DNA of 64,000 nt from Blautia hansenii (lineage in GTDB: Bacteria > Bacillota > Clostridia > Lachnospirales > Lachnospiraceae): the NCBI RefSeq assembly GCF_013304445.1, contig NZ_JAAITA010000004.1, forward strand, positions 62,001 to 126,000, in the 5' to 3' direction. This document shows positions 9,018-15,826 of this stretch, piece after piece. The number at the start of each line of letters is the position of its first letter. Positions within the stretch are counted from its first letter, which is position 1. Both the position numbers and the translations under genes were made by a program. A model generated the notes under the pieces. It saw only the letters and a list, made by a program, of their open reading frames with translations. It did no database searches and had not been told where the DNA came from.

Positions 9018-9695
9018 ATGAAAAATATGAACATTATTATTTGTGATGACAGGATAGATGACAGAAAAAATCTATCAGATTTGCTGTCAGACTATGGTGA
9101 AAAAAAGAATTATGAGTTTGCTATTACAGAATATGATTCTGGAGAACAGTTATGCGAAGAACAATCAGCTTTGGAAGCGTGTCAGATATTATTTCTGGAC
9201 ATCAATATGCAGGGGATGGATGGGCTGAAAACAGCTATGAGGATTAAAGAAAAATATCCAAAACTTCCGGTTGTGCTGGTGACGGCATACATGAATTACG
9301 CACTGGATGGATATAAGGTGAAAGCAAGCCGTTTTCTGCTGAAAGATAACCTTGCAGATACTATAGAAGAATGTATGGATGATTTGATAGCAGAAATTAA
9401 TAAAAACCGTAGGATTCTCGAATTTCGTTTTGTGGAGGGAACGATAAAACTCTATGCAGATGACATCATTTATATAGAAACAGAACTTCACAAAAATGTA
9501 TTTTATACTGAAAAAGGTACGTTTCAGATTTATAAAAAACTGGATGAACTGGAAAATGAATTCAAGGATATGGGATTCGTGCGGGCACATCTAAGTTTTC
9601 TTGTAAATGAGTTAAACCAGATAGGGATAAAAATAGATATGTATCGGCAGGAGTACAGATTTACTCCTGCTTTCGCCTTTATTCAGGCGGTTTGA
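9018..9695 (+). pseudogene. AgrA-like LytTR response regulator, 3' end lost
   Basis: The first about 120 residues are a receiver domain: acidic pair near CDDRIDD, phosphoacceptor Asp in LFLDINMQGMDG (Asp61 from this start), Thr in VLVTAYMNY and Lys in RFLLKDN. Residues about 130-197 are the first part of a LytTR DNA-binding domain (ADDIIYIETELHKNVFY, MGFVRAHLSFLVN). After FLVN the family pattern stops and an unrelated tail of about 28 residues follows, running into the neighbouring recombinase fragment. The domain therefore lacks its last strands and probably cannot bind DNA normally. No partner histidine kinase is present. The break lies near 9608. Confidence 0.75.
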
Positions 9696-10336
9696 CGTGT
9701 AGTACGCCGCATATATTCCCGCTCCATTTCCCGCATTTCCTCGTCTGTGGGAATATCCACAATCCCGACATAGGAATAGTAAATGTCGATTTGCTGTGTC
9801 CGTTTCCCGTCCTTTTTCTCACGCTCATGGATTACGATTTTATCCACAAATGCGTTTAGGATTTCGGGCGTGAGTTCGTCAATGCGGGTATATTTCTTCG
9901 TGACGGCTATCAGCTTTGCTACATTGGTCACTTCCATATCGGCTTGGCTGACCTCTGCGGTCAACGCTTCGATTTCACGCTTTAACTGTCCCTGCTCCGC
10001 TTCATATCCGTCTGACAGCTTGTAAAAGCGTTCGTCATTCAGTTTTCCGCTGACATTGTCCTCGTAGATTTTGCGGAACAGGCGGTCAAGCTCATCCATC
10101 CGCTTTTCGTCTTTTTCTATCTGTTTCTGCTTTGCGGACAGTTCGTATCGGCGTTCCGCAAGGGTGGTGTCTATCTGCCGTCGGATAAATACCCGCTCAA
10201 ACTGCTGTAAATAGGACAGGAAATGCTGAAGCTGTTTCAAAACCAACTGGTTTAATGCGTCCTCTCGGATATAATGCTGCGTGCAGTTCTGCGTGCGGCT
10301 CGTCCGTTTGTACTGCGAACAGCCTTTAAGGTTGAT
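9683..10336 (-). pseudogene. Large serine recombinase, C-terminal remnant
   Basis: An open frame of about 217 codons beginning in GCSQYKRTSRTQNCTQHYIRED, the zinc-ribbon region of TnpX/TndX-type large serine recombinases. It continues through a long coiled coil (RRYELSAKQKQIEKDEKRMD) and the helical end (FVDKIVIHEREKK, YVGIVDIP). The catalytic N-terminal domain with its serine is absent: the frame meets a stop at about 10337, right against the mobC stop. It is thus a recombination scar, not an active enzyme. Its stop codon lies within the response-regulator tail frame on the other strand. Confidence 0.85.
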
Positions 10337-10655
10337 TTAATAGGGTGCGTCTTTGTAACCGCCATATCTCGTCCACCGCCTTTTTAATGTCCTCTATATC
10401 CTGCCTGTAAACCGTCCCCGTCGCATTGGCGCGTTTTGCAATCTGGTTGATGTTCCGGCTCACCGCTTGCAGTTCCCGGATATATGCTTTTGTGTCGCTT
10501 CGGTCAACGACAAGAATATACCCGTCTATCGCCATTTTACGGAAGTATGCCCCATACTGCTTTATGGGAAGCTGCTTCATCTTCTCGTCGATCAGCCGCT
10601 TTTCTTCTTCCGTAACGTAAAACTTCATCTGTATATTTCTCTTTCGGTTTTCCAT
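10326..10655 (-). CDS. mobC: MobC-like relaxosome protein (second copy)
   Basis: A 109-residue protein, MENRKRNIQMKFYVTEEEKR, with the conserved ISRNINQIAKRAN-type segment (VSRNINQIAKRANATG). It belongs to the same family as the protein at 821-1153 but is clearly diverged. A relaxase would be expected next; instead the serine recombinase fragment abuts the stop codon. The protein looks complete, so the gene may still work with a relaxase elsewhere. Confidence 0.88.
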   Translation of the reverse strand: MENRKRNIQMKFYVTEEEKRLIDEKMKQLPIKQYGAYFRKMAIDGYILVVDRSDTKAYIRELQAVSRNINQIAKRANATGTVYRQDIEDIKKAVDEIWRLQRRTLLNQP

Positions 10656-10682
10656 TTCCGCACCGCCTTTCGGTATAAGGGT

Positions 10683-10737
10683 TTGGGATTATCCCAACAA
10701 GCACTTTTCGCAAACGGGTACTCGTTTGCTGTGCTTG
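10683..10737. other. oriT-like inverted repeats beside the second mobC
   Basis: TTGGGAT-T-ATCCCAA (10683-10697) is followed by CAAGCAC, GCAAACG/CGTTTGC and TGCTTG, nested repeats ending at 10737. The arrangement (short palindrome, CAAGC, longer hairpin, upstream of mobC) parallels the one at 1294-1352, including the shared CCCAACAAGC / CCCTAACAAGC string. Confidence 0.55.
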
Positions 10738-10854
10738 CTATCTACTCCTTATCCCGTTTCAAAGGCAGCGTTTGTTGCACTCTCTTTCTAATTTGGCGCA
10801 AAAAAAGATTGCAGCCCCTATGCGCTGCAATCTCCTGCTTCCCATATTGTGAGG

Positions 10855-11217
10855 TTAGTCCTCTGCTTGTTCGACTTCTGTTATCTCCCTTGCCGTTGCG
10901 GTTACAATCCGTATGCCTTTATCGCTCATACCGTCCAGCAGCGCGTCAAGCTGCCGCCGCCCGGTGGATTTCTCCGCATTGCTGTTCGGGAAGAAAAATT
11001 GATCTACCGAAATATGATACCGGGTTACAAGGTCATAGAATACCTGTAAACTCGGCTGTTGTCCCTTGTTCTCGATATTCGCAAGGTAGCGCGGGGAAAT
11101 ATATAACTCGTCGCTTACCTTTTTGCGGCTCTCGCCGTATTCATTTCTCGCGGCTTTTATAGCTGCCCCGAAAGCCTTAAAGTCGTACAATGGTACGGGT
11201 CTTTTTGCCATTTTCAT
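10855..11217 (-). CDS. XRE-family regulator, Tn916 Orf9-like
   Basis: A 120-residue protein with a helix-turn-helix at about residues 15-75 (AFGAAIKAARNEYGESRKKV, ELYISPRYLANIENKGQQPS) and a short C-terminal helix. Starts at 11217 or 11211 are both possible. By size, orientation (minus) and its relation to the sigma-like and HTH genes at 15175 and 15596 it matches orf9 of Tn916-type elements, which controls transfer genes. Here the accessory cassette and the intron separate it from the orf7/orf8-like pair. Confidence 0.88.
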   Translation of the reverse strand: MKMAKRPVPLYDFKAFGAAIKAARNEYGESRKKVSDELYISPRYLANIENKGQQPSLQVFYDLVTRYHISVDQFFFPNSNAEKSTGRRQLDALLDGMSDKGIRIVTATAREITEVEQAED

Positions 11218-11304
11218 TCACCCTGTTACATTTTACAGTTCACCTTTCTTTTTGGATATGTCCACACAATTCATATCATTAGGTTAAATACTTCCTGTTG
11301 TGTA

Positions 11305-11333
11305 TTGACAGTAGACTGATTTTCTGATAAAAT
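11305..11333 (+). promoter_or_regulatory. Promoter of the KTR/radical SAM cassette
   Basis: TTGACA (11305-11310), 17-base spacer, TAAAAT (11328-11333), followed 28 bases later by the leader peptide start. A near-consensus sigma-A promoter. Confidence 0.8.
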
Positions 11334-11361
11334 AAAATTTATGTAAAAGGAGGCGGCGTTT

Positions 11362-11388
11362 ATGTTGCATAGCATGCGTATTAGATAA
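11362..11388 (+). CDS. Leader peptide MLHSMRIR (antibiotic-sensing type)
   Basis: An 8-codon frame with a strong AAAGGAGG site at 11346-11353. It ends in MRIR, which fits the Arg-x-Arg/Lys macrolide-arrest pattern known from the ErmD leader (MTHSMRLR...). It shares even the HSMR core with that peptide. A hairpin with T-run follows 20 bases later and a second one at 11541. Ribosome stalling on this peptide would be expected to change the downstream RNA fold and switch on the KTR and radical SAM genes. The peptide is seen directly; the stalling function is inferred. Confidence 0.7.
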   Translation: MLHSMRIR

Positions 11389-11398
11389 GCATTGAAAA

Positions 11399-11435
11399 AA
11401 AGGATTTTCCCATTTTCAACATGGGCTTTTTTGTC
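11399..11435 (+). terminator. Attenuator hairpin after the leader peptide
   Basis: CCCAT-tttcaac-ATGGG followed by CTTTTTT, with an A-rich upstream arm that can extend the stem (GCATTG-AAAAAA with TTTTTTGTCATGC). Its place directly after the leader frame suggests transcription attenuation, as at erm, tet(M) and msr(D) loci. Confidence 0.65.
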
Positions 11436-11540
11436 ATGCTTATTTTGCGGATGCTATACAAAAAACTAACGACGTATAGATATAGTATAGACATAGTGCA
11501 AGCTATGCCTTAGTTTTGTTGTACTGCTCTGTGCATTATA

Positions 11541-11584
11541 AATGCAGGTCAATGCTCATGTTGAGGATTGACCTGCATTTTTTT
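11541..11584 (+). terminator. Strong terminator in front of the KTR gene
   Basis: AATGCAGGTCAA (11541-11552) pairs with TTGACCTGCATT (11568-11579) and is followed by T7. It stands 26 bases before the KTR gene start with no promoter in between. Transcripts from 11333 must therefore read through it to express the cassette. Confidence 0.85.
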
Positions 11585-11609
11585 GTGTAAAAAGGACGAG
11601 TGAAATATA

Positions 11610-11795
11610 ATGCTTAAAAAATATTGGATAAAATGTCCGATTTGTAACGGAAAGACGAGAGTTCAAGTATTTCATAATACTGTATTAAAAGATTTTCCTC
11701 TTTTCTGCCCTAAATGCAAATTGACGCATATCATTGATGTAGAAAAATTAGAGATTGTAATCAAAAATACAGAAAAACAAACTTTTATTATTTAG
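11610..11795 (+). CDS. Cysteine-rich KTR protein
   Basis: A 61-residue zinc-ribbon-like protein with two CxxC pairs (IKCPICNGKTRVQVF and LFCPKCK) and the KTR sequence that names the family. Such proteins accompany resistance genes such as tet(M) in Tn916-like elements, just beside the orf9 regulator, and have no known function. It is 16 bases upstream of the radical SAM gene and certainly co-transcribed with it. The ribosome site AAAGGACGAG is moderate. Confidence 0.88.
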   Translation: MLKKYWIKCPICNGKTRVQVFHNTVLKDFPLFCPKCKLTHIIDVEKLEIVIKNTEKQTFII

Positions 11796-11811
11796 AAGAA
11801 AGGATATAAAA

Positions 11812-12795
11812 ATGAAACGTTTACCTAAATATACGCCTGCGGAAGTACGGAATGATCCATACGGATTTACTTACAAAGAAATGTCGGAAGTTATTGGCGA
11901 GAATGAAGCAAAAGCCTTATATGAAGAATTATATAAGCAATTACCACGCAAAAAAAATCTATCAATGTTGGTAAAAAATATTTGCAAAAGCAGTGATACT
12001 GAAAAGTATGTTTACGAACTGAAAGACAACAAATACATTGAAACGGTTTTTATCAAGCGGCGAGATGGTGGAACTGTTTGCGTGAGCACACAAGTCGGTT
12101 GTCCTGTTGGTTGTATTTTTTGTGAGTCCGGGCGAAATGGCTTTGTTCGTAATCTAACATCGTCAGAAATCGTACAACAGATTATATTGTTGCGTCGAAA
12201 AGTAAACCGTATCGTTTTTATGGGTATGGGAGAGCCTTTATTCAATTATGACAACTTGATAAAAGCAATCCATATTCTCCGAGATAGATATGGGCTCAAC
12301 TTTCCAACCGACGGCATTACCATATCAACAGTTGGTCCGGTCGATCAATTAAAAAAATTGCGCGAGGAACATCTTAAAATTCAGTTGACAATATCTTTAC
12401 ACGCAGCAACACAATCTGCAAGAAATCGTATTATTCCTCACATGCGCATATATGCTATTGAAGATGTTGTTAAGCAAGCCTTATCCTATTCTGAAAGGCA
12501 TAATCGCAAAATTGTCTTTGCGTATTTGCTTTTACCGGGTATAAATGACCGGCCCTCAGATGTAAGACAACTTGCAAAATGGTTTCGGGGCAAAAAAGTT
12601 ATGATTAACGTGTTACAATACAACCCAACAAGCAATTCAAGAATTAAAGCACCACAGAAACGGGAAATAGTTGCATTCAAACATCAATTAGAGCAAGCAG
12701 GACTTGAAGTTACTATGAGAGTTTCTCATGGCAGAGAGATTAACGCGGCTTGTGGACAGTTAGCTAACACATATAATAAATTCAAAAAAAAATGA
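11812..12795 (+). CDS. RlmN/Cfr-like radical SAM rRNA adenine methyltransferase
   Basis: A 327-residue member of the RlmN/Cfr family, which methylates A2503 of 23S rRNA (RlmN at C2, Cfr at C8). The 4Fe-4S cysteines are Cys97, Cys101 and Cys104 (GCPVGCIFC). The two catalytic cysteines match Cys90 (TVCVST, Cfr Cys105 position) and Cys314 (AACGQL, Cfr Cys338). It has GMGEPL like RlmN but ISTVG, closer to Cfr. It is shorter than either at the N-terminus and lies in a mobile cassette behind a macrolide-type leader peptide, unlike a housekeeping rlmN. A Cfr-type resistance role (phenicols, lincosamides, oxazolidinones, pleuromutilins) is plausible but unproven. AAAGGAT precedes the ATG. The gene is visibly more AT-rich than the mob genes. 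Confidence 0.85.
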   Translation: MKRLPKYTPAEVRNDPYGFTYKEMSEVIGENEAKALYEELYKQLPRKKNLSMLVKNICKSSDTEKYVYELKDNKYIETVFIKRRDGGTVCVSTQVGCPVGCIFCESGRNGFVRNLTSSEIVQQIILLRRKVNRIVFMGMGEPLFNYDNLIKAIHILRDRYGLNFPTDGITISTVGPVDQLKKLREEHLKIQLTISLHAATQSARNRIIPHMRIYAIEDVVKQALSYSERHNRKIVFAYLLLPGINDRPSDVRQLAKWFRGKKVMINVLQYNPTSNSRIKAPQKREIVAFKHQLEQAGLEVTMRVSHGREINAACGQLANTYNKFKKK

Positions 12796-12822
12796 TTAAA
12801 AGTGCCAGACGCATAGACGCAG

Positions 12823-12870
12823 AGCCGATAACGCATTAGGTCAAAAAACCTATGTGTTATCGGCTTTTTT
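12823..12870 (+). terminator. Terminator after the radical SAM gene
   Basis: AGCCGATAAC...TTAGGT pairs with ACCTA...GTTATCGGCT around a CAAAAA loop, then T6. It ends the leader-KTR-radical SAM unit. Confidence 0.9.
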
Positions 12871-12948
12871 ATTTAATATTGCGCAAAAGCCGCTGTTCCC
12901 TATTATAGAATGGATTGCGGGTAGTGTATTAAAGTCGCCCTTTTTTAA

Positions 12949-12990
12949 GGATACGGCGGTATCGGGGAGGTATCGCCGTGTCCATTTTTA
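12949..12990 (+). terminator. Second terminator-like hairpin
   Basis: GGATACGGCG (12949-12958) pairs with CGCCGTGTCC (12974-12983), followed by ATTTTTATTT. No gene lies between this and the first terminator; it is probably a relic of the element the cassette came from. Confidence 0.65.
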
Positions 12991-13105
12991 TTTACTGTAA
13001 CCCGCCTAATGCTTTGCGGTCAAAAAAAGCTATGCTCCGCAAGCGGGATATTCCGGCTATGAGTATGAACTGTCAATACATCTAAATACTTCTTACATTT
13101 CCTTT

Positions 13106-13138
13106 GCGCTCGTCCGCGTCTTGCGGACGGGCGCATTT
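13106..13138 (+). terminator. GC-rich terminator hairpin, target of the group II intron
   Basis: GCGCTCGTCCGC (13106-13117) and GCGGACGGGCGC (13123-13134) form a 12-bp stem with a 5-base loop followed by ATTTT. The intron starts ten bases past the stem. Class C group II introns characteristically insert just downstream of such hairpins. Confidence 0.75.
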
Positions 13139-13143
13139 TGCTT

Positions 13144-15049
13144 GTGCGCCTAGCGGCGCACGTTTCTAACGGGTTAAAGTCCCGAATCCGCCCGGTAGTG
13201 GGAAGGATATAGCCGAAAGCAATGGTGTCCATCGTGAGATGGAATCTGAAGGAAGCTGGATGTGAGGAATATACTAACTCACGGGCAAATCTCTGGTCTG
13301 ACGAACAGAAATCTCATATGAGGTCATGCATGTGGGTAAGGCAGCAAGCCATGTTGAAGCCCGATAACTACACGGAATCATGCATGATAAATGAGGCAGA
13401 TGGATGGAGAGGAAGAAACGTGTGGTACCTAGGGAGGTCTGTGCGGTATGCCTTGAAAGAGGTAACCATTGCATAAAGCAATGCTGAGCGCACAGAAGTC
13501 AGCAGAGGTCATAGTAGCCGAGAGGTGAAGGACCGAATCAGTAGGAGTCTTGAGTATGACCGAGAAAGGAGGAATGACCGTCTATGGCAGAAAACATTGA
13601 AAACAATGGCTGTTCGCAAAGAGATAATGCGGAACATGAAGGGTATGTGAAAGCGTCTAGGTCATTCAATCGGATATGGAAAGAAAGAGACAGTGCACAG
13701 CCGAGACTTTTGGAAACGATACTGTATAAAGACAACTTTAACAGAGCGTATAAGAGAGTTAAGGCAAACAAGGGAGCGCCGGGAATTGATGGCATGACCA
13801 TTGAAGAGGCTCTTCCATATCTAAAGGAACATCAACAAGAGATAACTGACCGCATTTATCGTGGAAAGTATACTCCGTCTCCAGTAAGACGAGTTGAAAT
13901 TCCCAAACCAGATGGTGGTGTGCGAAAGCTTGGCATACCAACAGTGATAGACCGTACACTTCAACAGGCAATAACCCAACAGTTAGTGCCAATCTATGAA
14001 CCGCTGTTTGCAGATGGTAGCTATGGCTATCGTCCGAACAGAAGTGCAAAAGATGCAATACTTAAGGTTAAGGAGTATGCAGAACAAGGCTATACATTCG
14101 CTGTAGTCCTTGACTTGTCAAAGTACTTCGATACTCTTAATCACGAAATTCTCATCAATCTTCTCCGAAAGAATGTAAAAGATGAACGTGTAGTACAGTT
14201 GATAAAGCGCTATCTGAAAAGCGGTGTAATGGAAAACGGAGTGGTAATTGACACAGAGGAAGGCTCACCACAAGGTGGAAATCTATCACCATTGCTGGCA
14301 AACATCTACCTCAATGAGTTCGACCAGGAATACCTGAAAAGAGGTGTTCCATGCATAAGATATGCAGATGACATCGTGCTTCTTGCAAAGAGCAAGCGAG
14401 CATCAGAGAGACTCTTGGAAAGCAGTACAAAATATCTTGAGGAGAGGCTGAAACTTACAGTCAACCGAGAAAAGAGCCGTACAGTCAGCGTGTTTGCAAT
14501 CCGAAATTTTAAATTCCTTGGCTTTGCATTGGGAAGGAACGGAAAAGGCATATATGTCCGAGTTCATCCGAAGTCATGGAAGAAGTTTAAGTCCAGACTG
14601 AAGGAGTTATCTTCCCGTAAGCGATGTCAGTCAATCAAGCCAAGCCTTGAGAAAATCAAAGTATATGCAAGAGGATGGCTTAACTACTACGGAATTGCAA
14701 GCATGAAGAACAACATAGATGACATCAACGGATGGCTCTATCACAGAATACGCATGTGCATATGGAAACAGTGGAAGAAACCAAGGACGAAGGTACGTAA
14801 CCTTATCAAGATGGGAGTACCCAAAGACTTGGCAATGCAAGCGGGTAATACCCGACGGGGACATTGGTTCGCAACGCATACAGTTGCAGTAAACATGGCA
14901 ATGACAAAAGAAAGACTGATAAACAGCGGCTTTTATGATTTAGCCACAGCCTATCAGTCAGTGCACGTCAACTATTGAAAGCGCCGTATACCGAACGGTA
15001 CGTACGGTGCTGTGAGAGGACGGCGGTTAGCCACCGCCTCCTACTCGAT
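13144..15049 (+). mobile_element. Group II intron (likely class C)
   Basis: The 5' end reads GTGCGCC, the usual GUGYG start. The intron-encoded reverse transcriptase occupies 13584-14978. After its stop, 14979-15010 holds a domain V-like hairpin (AGCGCCGTATACC-GAA-CGGTACGTACGGTGC), and 15013-15046 a domain VI-like stem with an unpaired A in CCTACTC. The 3' boundary at about 15049 is approximate. The 440 bases before the reading frame are the structured ribozyme domains. The site right after a terminator hairpin supports class C. It looks complete. Confidence 0.85.
13584..14978 (+). CDS. ltrA: Group II intron reverse transcriptase/maturase
   Basis: A 464-residue intron-encoded protein. RT domains run from about residue 50 to 310 and include KANKGAPGIDGM, IPKPDGGVRKLGIPTVIDR, GSYGYRPNRS, the EGSPQGGNLSPLLANIYLNE box and the catalytic YADD in RYADDIVLLAKS. 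A maturase (X) domain follows with ARGWLNYYGIASM. No H-N-H endonuclease motif is visible at the end, as in class C proteins, which rely on hairpin targets. It helps the intron RNA splice and copies it into DNA after reverse splicing. Confidence 0.95.
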   Translation: MAENIENNGCSQRDNAEHEGYVKASRSFNRIWKERDSAQPRLLETILYKDNFNRAYKRVKANKGAPGIDGMTIEEALPYLKEHQQEITDRIYRGKYTPSPVRRVEIPKPDGGVRKLGIPTVIDRTLQQAITQQLVPIYEPLFADGSYGYRPNRSAKDAILKVKEYAEQGYTFAVVLDLSKYFDTLNHEILINLLRKNVKDERVVQLIKRYLKSGVMENGVVIDTEEGSPQGGNLSPLLANIYLNEFDQEYLKRGVPCIRYADDIVLLAKSKRASERLLESSTKYLEERLKLTVNREKSRTVSVFAIRNFKFLGFALGRNGKGIYVRVHPKSWKKFKSRLKELSSRKRCQSIKPSLEKIKVYARGWLNYYGIASMKNNIDDINGWLYHRIRMCIWKQWKKPRTKVRNLIKMGVPKDLAMQAGNTRRGHWFATHTVAVNMAMTKERLINSGFYDLATAYQSVHVNY

Positions 15050-15174
15050 TTTTCAACTTTTTTCTGAAAAACGCACTCAAGAGCCATCTCCCGAACGGGT
15101 ACGGAGCGAAAGGGGCAGAGAGGACAAGCCCTTAACTCCCGTCCTCTACTCCACGCGGGAAGGAGGTGAACTCT

Positions 15175-15612
15175 ATGGAGCTATCTTCTTCCGACAAGGA
15201 AAGAATACAACATCAGTACGACGCATTAGCAAAGAAAACTTTGGTTGGCGAAGCGAAAAGCCACCGCCGCACTCTTGCGAAACGCGCAGCACGCGAAGTA
15301 CCTTTTTCGGATTTGAGCGAAAGCGAACTCGCGCAGCTTTTCACAACGGACGAATACAAAAGCGATTATTTCCGTTTTCAAGTGTCCGGCTTTGATGTAC
15401 TCGTCAAAAATGAACTGCTTGCCGAAGCCCTTAACGCTTTGCCCGAAAGGAAACGCGACATTATCCTTTTGTCCTACTTCTTGGACATGAGCGACGCGGA
15501 AATTGCTGAACTGCTGAATGTTGTACGCACGACGGTTTTCCGGCACAGGAAATCCGCGCTTGCGAAAATCAAACAGTATTTGGAGGGAAAAGCAGATGAT
15601 GAATACCGTTAG
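15175..15612 (+). CDS. Sigma-70 region 4 regulator, Tn916 Orf7-like
   Basis: A 145-residue sigma-factor-like protein whose C-terminal half is a region 4 helix-turn-helix (LNALPERKRDIILLSYFLDM, SDAEIAELLNVVRTTVFRHR). Such proteins stand in place of Orf7 in Tn916-type elements and activate conjugation genes. GGAAGGAGGTGA precedes ATG 15175. Its last 17 bases overlap the next gene, so the two are translationally coupled. Confidence 0.88.
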   Translation: MELSSSDKERIQHQYDALAKKTLVGEAKSHRRTLAKRAAREVPFSDLSESELAQLFTTDEYKSDYFRFQVSGFDVLVKNELLAEALNALPERKRDIILLSYFLDMSDAEIAELLNVVRTTVFRHRKSALAKIKQYLEGKADDEYR

Positions 15613-15826
15613 GAAATCTGAAAATCTGTTGCCGTTCCCTGTCATTTCCGCAGCGGCAAACGGCGACACAACCGCCATGTGCGCGATCTTGAAGCATTAC
15701 GAGGGTTACATAGCGAAACTTTGTACCCGCACGCTGAAAGACGACGCGGGCAATACCTATTCCTATGTGGACGAGGAAATGCGTAACAGGCTGCAAGTGC
15801 GCCTTATTACCCGCACCCTTATGTGA
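15596..15826 (+). CDS. Helix-turn-helix protein, Tn916 Orf8-like, probably shortened
   Basis: A 76-residue protein (MMNTVRKSENLLPFPVISAA) of the small HTH family encoded after Orf7-like sigma factors; the segment AAANGDTTAMCAILKHYEGY is typical. Relatives as I know them end a few residues after LITRTL; here the frame stops as LITRTLM. The sequence then changes to an AT-rich reading frame of a different kind, so a recombination junction lies at or near 15826. Confidence 0.75.
   Translation: MMNTVRKSENLLPFPVISAAANGDTTAMCAILKHYEGYIAKLCTRTLKDDAGNTYSYVDEEMRNRLQVRLITRTLM

Follow-up and report, generated by a model that had tools for sequence, protein, structure and literature searches.

The mobile methyltransferase gene mrmA in Blautia hansenii and its probable macrolide-sensing leader, a relative of the mef attenuator

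We analyzed a 64,000-nucleotide (nt) stretch of a Blautia hansenii contig (here called the window), in which a short leader peptide gene and a strong terminator precede a gene for a mobile radical S-adenosylmethionine (SAM) methyltransferase. We read this locus as the macrolide-resistance gene mrmA preceded by an attenuator that senses macrolides and is kin to the one of mef genes, and we put the probability of this reading at roughly 0.7. Resistance by mrmA would then probably be switched on by the drug itself. The enzyme is known; the macrolide-sensing leader before its gene is apparently unreported. Loci used for comparison carry L numbers, and genomes carry G numbers.

MrmA was described in 2025 as an RlmN-type methyltransferase encoded on Tn6105 of Clostridioides difficile (WP_002584956.1; also on Tn6110/Tn7806) (PMC11983580). 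The published mrmA cloning primers match the window exactly at both gene ends, at 11815 and up to 12795, and the window gene (11812 to 12795, + strand, 327 amino acids) is mrmA as read from these gene ends alone. The primer sites also match in L087, L097 to L099, and L104 and do not match in the 86% variants. In Escherichia coli lacking tolC, mrmA has been shown to raise the minimum inhibitory concentration (MIC) of erythromycin from 2 to 512-1024, i.e., 256- to 512-fold, and that of pristinamycin IA from 64-128 to 1024, with an approximately threefold rise for quinupristin-dalfopristin; the MICs of tylosin, pristinamycin IIA, clindamycin, tiamulin, chloramphenicol, and linezolid were not raised (PMC11983580). 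The authors of that study propose that the adenine concerned is one other than A2503 (PMC11983580). No leader or attenuator for mrmA was found reported in the open-licence literature, where PMC11983580 was also the only paper found on MrmA as a macrolide methyltransferase; the strings "leader" and "attenuat" are both absent from its main text.

The region upstream of the gene has the anatomy of an attenuator on the + strand. A sigma-70 promoter (TTGACA-17-TAAAAT; 11305 to 11333) matches the consensus at 11 of 12 positions and was the sole site of that quality in a scan of the region, which returned 8 promoter-like sites versus 6.7 in shuffles. It is followed by a ribosome-binding site (AGGAGG; 11348 to 11353) and by an eight-codon leader peptide gene, MLHSMRIR (11362 to 11388; ATG TTG CAT AGC ATG CGT ATT AGA TAA), that ends in Arg-Ile-Arg directly before the stop. 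We defined leader-type open reading frames (ORFs) by an ATG start, an upstream Shine-Dalgarno sequence, a length of 5 to 15 codons, and [RK]x[RK] at the end or one residue earlier. When the 600 upstream bases were shuffled with dinucleotides preserved, such an ORF arose in 2 of 2000 replicates; it was found in none of the 800-base regions upstream of 78 RlmN-type loci (76 of them with at least 600 bases there). The predicted fold of the RNA from 11335 to 11600 is better than that of 200 out of 200 shuffles (z = -5.62). It contains a predicted long stem-loop (11365 to 11461), in which the leader codons pair with downstream RNA as in R1/R2 of mef, and an intrinsic terminator (11540 to 11584; stem 11540 to 11580, -26.7 kcal/mol, and then a T-run) that aligns to the terminator of the Rfam family RF02862. 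A putative anti-terminator arm of 15 nt (11412 to 11426) is complementary to a segment of this terminator (11554 to 11568), its would-be partner. The promoter, leader, strong terminator, KTR gene, and radical-SAM enzyme thus all lie where the first-pass annotation had put them. The hairpin that it described at 11399 to 11435 is present as well, not as a separate structure but as the upper part of the single predicted stem-loop.

The leader RNA is related to the attenuator of mef/msrD. RF02862 (sRNA_1300, "Enterococcus sRNA 1300") matches the window at 11364 to 11585 on the + strand (49.5 bits; cutoff, 48.8; E = 4e-8). The best match in the window's genome (268.6 bits) starts in the leader MTASMRLR at another locus (L003, G000:C11:2020-5249), where the leader is followed by a 408-residue protein of the major facilitator superfamily (MFS; PF07690/PF05977), a second leader, MYLIFM, and the start of a further ORF. 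As MTASMRLR and MYLIFM are the published MefAL and MsrDL (PMC10314930), RF02862 is, by its leader sequences, the mef/msrD macrolide attenuator. The genome of the window therefore holds two RF02862 attenuators, the mef-like L003 and the mrmA leader. Induction of mef(E) has been shown to be leader dependent and to be controlled by the leader, its ribosome-binding site, the terminator, and distal repeats (PMC4335068). With the mef(A/E)-msrD (Mega) attenuator (PMC4335068, PMC10314930), the window shares an eight-codon leader with R6-x-R8 followed by the stop, the leader stem-loop, the terminator, post-leader RNA complementary to the terminator, and the same covariance model. It differs in that the gene downstream encodes a methyltransferase rather than an efflux pump, that the outer anti-terminator repeats are missing in the window subtype, and that a KTR gene stands between the terminator and mrmA.

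The comparison extends to the leader of ErmD (MTHSMRLRFPTLNQ; beginning MTHSMRLR), with which the window leader shares HSMR-[LI]-R in the same positions. MLHSMRIR aligns with both MefAL and ErmDL position for position at R6-x-R8, in agreement with the Arg-x-Arg arrest motif first proposed for it. ErmDL is longer than the window leader and serves an Erm N6 methyltransferase. Together with the RF02862 match and the placement of the enzyme outside the established families (see below), this alignment upholds the initial description of a mobile RlmN/Cfr-superfamily enzyme whose gene is preceded by a macrolide-type leader.

Our survey of RF02862 covered 391 genomes of the class and used search filters that lose weak matches. 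Thirteen matches exceeded the cutoff, in 12 of the 391 genomes: nine before a mef-like MFS gene and four, including the window, before mrmA ("mef-like" being called from the leader and the first residues of the protein, with Pfam run for L003 only). R-L-R is present in eight of the nine mef leaders; the ninth, at L111, is frameshifted to MFLFV. Among seven weaker matches, two precede mrmA (L117 and L118), one precedes another MFS gene (L121), two precede unrelated genes (L119 and L120), and two are short and on the opposite strand at mef loci (L122 and L123). Viewed from the enzyme, eight class genomes carry an mrmA-type gene; six of them have an RF02862 match, which is above the cutoff in four.

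Arg-Ile-Arg leaders were found at 14 of 21 mrmA-family loci (13 of 21 within 600 nt), many of which are near-copies, so that the count is not one of independent events. MLHSMRIR occurs in the window and at L005, L007, L008, L087, L089, L097 to L100, and L104, and MLHSIRIRK occurs at L009 and L102, apparently one contig. The two differences between the leaders of the window and L005 are both synonymous. The remaining leader, MIINFMRIR, precedes a relative of mrmA on a Paraclostridium plasmid (L006) and is unlike the other leaders in sequence; the predicted fold of its region is also strong (z = -3.98; equaled by 1 of 200 shuffles). A blastn search of the leader alone against plasmids returned two known records and three short weak matches.

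The L006 plasmid offers an observation of its own. An hflX-type GTPase gene and, immediately downstream of it, the mrmA relative stand there in tandem (L006:1700-4330), each with a short Arg-X-Arg ORF before it; the ORF before the hflX-type gene is MMVICRGIFFLRLRG (found by reading), and tetB(P) lies nearby. Homologues of hflX can confer macrolide and lincosamide resistance.

Several findings weigh against an inducible attenuator in front of mrmA. The RF02862 score of the window clears the curated cutoff by 0.7 bits only, and among the eight class genomes with an mrmA-type gene, G205 and G359 have no match and G152 and G226 have matches below the cutoff. The leaders of L105 (MLHSIRIWK) and L101 (MFSYNYI; L101:1008-1031) lack Arg-X-Arg, although L101 has a well-kept attenuator and a relative of mrmA. 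No leader was found upstream of the mrmA-family gene at L010, L090, L092, or L103, and at L088 the upstream part is replaced.

The energetics of the anti-terminator are the weakest point. RNA immediately downstream of the leader (GGCAATAAAAAGCAG type) pairs with the end of the terminator (CTGCATTTTTTATTGCC type) in the mef leaders and in L105 and L101. When the leader was masked, as by a stalled ribosome, the terminator-free structure was ahead by 2.6 to 12.5 kcal/mol in L105, L101, and all six mef leaders scored (L003, missed by the terminator pattern, was not among them). In the window, by contrast, the terminator was still favored by 9.0 kcal/mol, as it was in L005 (3.1 kcal/mol), L007 (7.9 kcal/mol), and L009 (1.1 kcal/mol), and its probability in the window did not fall with masking (0.65 to 0.70). 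The window subtype has lost the outer repeats of the mef anti-terminator, and the duplex there is -7.9 kcal/mol, compared with -16.7 to -22.1 kcal/mol outside this subtype. An RNAalifold consensus of 13 leaders was also weak (-5.15 kcal/mol; covariation, -0.01), and the pairing was therefore assessed by duplex energy and a pair table. The masked-leader energies speak against a simple mef-like switch in the window type. Because the modeled anti-terminator fails to outcompete the terminator when the leader is masked, we regard the window leader RNA as a relative of the mef attenuator that may work alike rather than as a full member.

The equilibrium-energy test is nevertheless a poor yardstick, since with the leader unmasked the terminator was already disfavored in 6 of 12 leaders, including 4 of 6 mef leaders, so that the known mef switch is not reproduced either. 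A 15-base pairing between the inner segment of the window (11412 to 11426) and the terminator (11554 to 11568) is retained, and the whole window duplex reaches -26.7 kcal/mol, equal to the terminator stem (the cost of opening other helices left out). Pairing between post-leader RNA and terminator was matched by none of 200 shuffles in each of 13 leaders, a set that leaves out near-copies such as L106, L107, L113 to L115, and L117. In a pair table of the inner helix for six mrmA leaders, two of which are identical over all 30 bases, 82 of 90 cells are standard pairs. Both sides of pairs 6 and 7 differ between the window type and L009/L105/L101, and L009 has further changes at pairs 14 and 15, past three broken pairs. 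We take this apparent covariation as modest evidence, because the main contrast is one evolutionary event.

The strongest competing explanation is that the leader of the window subtype is a worn-down relic that has lost its anti-terminator, with mrmA expressed by constant read-through or from another promoter. The masked-leader preference for the terminator and the loss of the outer repeats both favor it, as does L087, where the terminator hairpin is replaced and the leader and mrmA are unchanged. However, between the window and L005 types, whose DNA diverges by about 15%, the leader codons show synonymous differences only; the window keeps the inner 15-bp pairing intact; and the energies that favor a relic come from the test found wanting above. 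On balance, we consider a relic unlikely, while allowing it a real share of the probability. The replacement in L087, a contig from a viral collection, is a palindromic element with AAACCACCGGCT-type repeats (L087:3515-3771).

For an attenuator that still senses macrolides, we propose the following sequence of events. In the absence of drug, MLHSMRIR would be translated freely, the leader RNA would form its stem-loops, and transcription would end at the terminator (11540 to 11584). With a macrolide in the exit tunnel, we infer that the ribosome would arrest at Arg6-Ile7-Arg8 and disturb the leader stem. The freed 11412 to 11426 segment could then pair with 11554 to 11568 of the terminator, and RNA polymerase would continue into KTR and mrmA, provided that antitermination is efficient in the window subtype. 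MrmA would methylate 23S rRNA by a reaction other than that of Cfr on A2503, with resistance to 14-membered macrolides and streptogramin B as the outcome.

The family placement of the enzyme bears on what it does. It carries the complete cysteine set of the RlmN/Cfr superfamily (C90, CX3CX2C at 97/101/104, and C314) as well as the motifs GMGEPL and ISTVG, which bears out the catalytic cysteines and motifs listed in the first-pass annotation. The suggestion that it fits neither Cfr nor RlmN also held up. The best NCBIfam model is RlmN at 277.6 bits, under the TIGR00048 equivalog cutoff of 290; the Cfr models score 193 to 200 versus cutoffs of 468 to 550; and identity to Cfr A to D is 33 to 36%. 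We built a tree of 58 proteins (14 of the mrmA family, 39 hand-picked from the 78 RlmN-type loci, Cfr A to D, and one Rhodobacter plasmid protein; the near-identical copies L087 to L089, L097 to L099, and L104 were omitted, and rooting was for drawing only). The mrmA family forms one branch (support, 100/99) apart from Cfr (100/100), and both families lie among the RlmN rows. A phylogeny with Cfr and RlmN had been recommended as a check, and in this unrooted form it gives the enzyme a clade of its own outside Cfr. The nearest neighbor of the family is the Rhodobacter plasmid protein (100/99, on a long branch). This RlmN-like protein (L093) is 44.5% identical to the enzyme, and floR and tet(G) are found on the same stretch of the plasmid. 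On our own alignment, five positions carry a letter shared by all 14 family rows that differs from 35 to 38 of the 39 RlmN rows; at two of these, T193 (three of four Cfr) and A237 (four of four), the letter is that of Cfr.

It is very improbable that the gene is a spare housekeeping RlmN, acting at C2 of A2503 and carried on a transposon with no role in resistance. RlmN provides the best model for the protein, which shares with it the superfamily, the cysteines, and GMGEPL, and the annotated relatives of mrmA that we examined bear the name RlmN. The clade is separate, however, the score is below the equivalog cutoff, a macrolide-type leader precedes the gene, and the same genome has another RlmN-type gene (39% identical to the enzyme), which makes this an extra copy. 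Moreover, the 256- to 512-fold gain in erythromycin MIC was obtained in E. coli, whose own RlmN already methylates C2 of A2503.

Even harder to sustain is the original proposal of a Cfr-like enzyme that methylates C8 of A2503. MrmA and Cfr have in common the radical-SAM superfamily with all five cysteines, mobility, resistance, and the Cfr letter at two of the five family-specific positions. Against this stand the scores far below the Cfr cutoffs, the low identity to Cfr A to D, and the position outside the Cfr clade. Cfr-type C8 methylation of A2503 gives a drug spectrum different from that of MrmA; because of this, and because C2 is already methylated in E. coli, neither A2503 reaction fits the MrmA profile. 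The published MICs, which are flat for clindamycin, tiamulin, chloramphenicol, and linezolid (PMC11983580), contradict a Cfr-like profile, and the profile published for mrmA is one of erythromycin and streptogramin B.

Equally far-fetched is a trans-acting small RNA, as the Rfam name suggests, with an accidental link to mrmA: RF02862 RNA is indeed an abundant 230-nt transcript in Enterococcus faecium by RNA sequencing and Northern blotting (PMC5593968), but this fits a terminated leader, as a terminated attenuator would yield the same short transcript, and all 13 above-cutoff matches begin at a leader gene (frameshifted in L111) before a mef-like gene or mrmA.

If mrmA is inducible, susceptibility tests without prior drug exposure may understate resistance. 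Tests without prior exposure may likewise understate the resistance conferred by inducible erm genes. The presence of one sensor type before both an efflux gene and a methyltransferase gene implies that sensor and resistance mechanism move independently of each other, and an Rfam "small RNA" (RF02862) is explained as a macrolide attenuator. The natural leader variants are available for direct testing of the Arg-X-Arg rule and the anti-terminator model. A wider proposal, on which we are evenly divided, is that MrmA adds a third target specificity to the RlmN/Cfr superfamily. It would be the radical-SAM equivalent of Erm, methylating a carbon of a non-A2503 adenine in the macrolide site, and mrmA genes would have gained leaders that sense macrolides on more than one occasion (in transposons one akin to the mef attenuator, and next to hflX on a plasmid a dissimilar one). 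They would form a drug-inducible module filed in databases as housekeeping RlmN. The gene mrmA was reported only in 2025, and the annotated relatives that we examined go under the RlmN name.

The mobility of the locus is apparent from its distribution. The module (10320 to 13143 plus 15049 to 15820) matches L125 at 98.7%, and the likeness stops at 10320 and 15820. Four genomes, each from a different further family (G245, G072, G298, and G459), encode a protein 100% identical to it, and a fifth genome (G152) encodes one that is 99% identical. At the DNA level, positions 11300 to 12870 are identical in L097 and L099 and differ by one base in L104; L098 is missing 23 bases of the leader RNA, and L100 shows 8 mismatches plus 2 gap positions. 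At an E value of 1e-80 or better, an mrmA-type gene was present in 8 of the 391 genomes of the class and in 3 of 398 genomes of the phylum; both counts include the genome of the window. Matches at least 60% identical made up 3 of 248 among plasmid records and 1 of 43 among phage records. No Erm was found in the window's genome, a draft assembly, where the RrnaAD matches were one at 232.5 bits, taken as KsgA, and three at or below 27 bits.

The surroundings of Tn6105 (a mobilization protein, serine recombinases, a sigma factor, and a response regulator; PMC3158075) resemble the kinds of genes in the window. Like MrmA of Tn6105, with its exact primer sites, the window enzyme belongs to a lineage apart from RlmN and Cfr; the window copy differs in lying in a 3.28-Mb genome, beside a group II intron. 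A survey of 1101 C. difficile genomes with mobile elements lists Tn6105 in 269 of them (PMC8307371).

Within the module, a divergent helix-turn-helix regulator (10855 to 11217, - strand) precedes the mrmA promoter, and a predicted terminator (12821 to 12867, + strand, -28.1 kcal/mol) follows mrmA. The group II intron (13144 to 15048, + strand), with an RVT/maturase ORF at 13584 to 14978, is a clean insertion between mrmA and the gene for a sigma-70 region 4 protein of the transposon module (15166 to 15612, + strand); it is absent from the equivalent place in L125, L099, L087, and L100. Two genes upstream were named by reading, a response regulator (9018 to 9695) and a DUF4368 protein (9683 to 10246) that we read as the C-terminal part, or remnant, of a serine recombinase. 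This fragment adjoins a mobC-like gene near 10320, where the likeness to L125 stops, and may mark an element junction or a truncation.

The KTR gene between the attenuator and mrmA (11610 to 11795, + strand) encodes a small, cysteine-rich protein (PF14205, 75.4 bits). We considered it as a functional partner of the enzyme and rejected this in favor of a likely passenger, as L105 and L006 have no KTR between leader and enzyme. The genome has four further KTR copies, and the three examined are all downstream of unrelated cargo. At L135 (G000:C44:41500-49500), three KTR genes lie within 5 kb, behind a MATE-like gene, a flavodoxin-like gene, and one unassigned gene (by reading).

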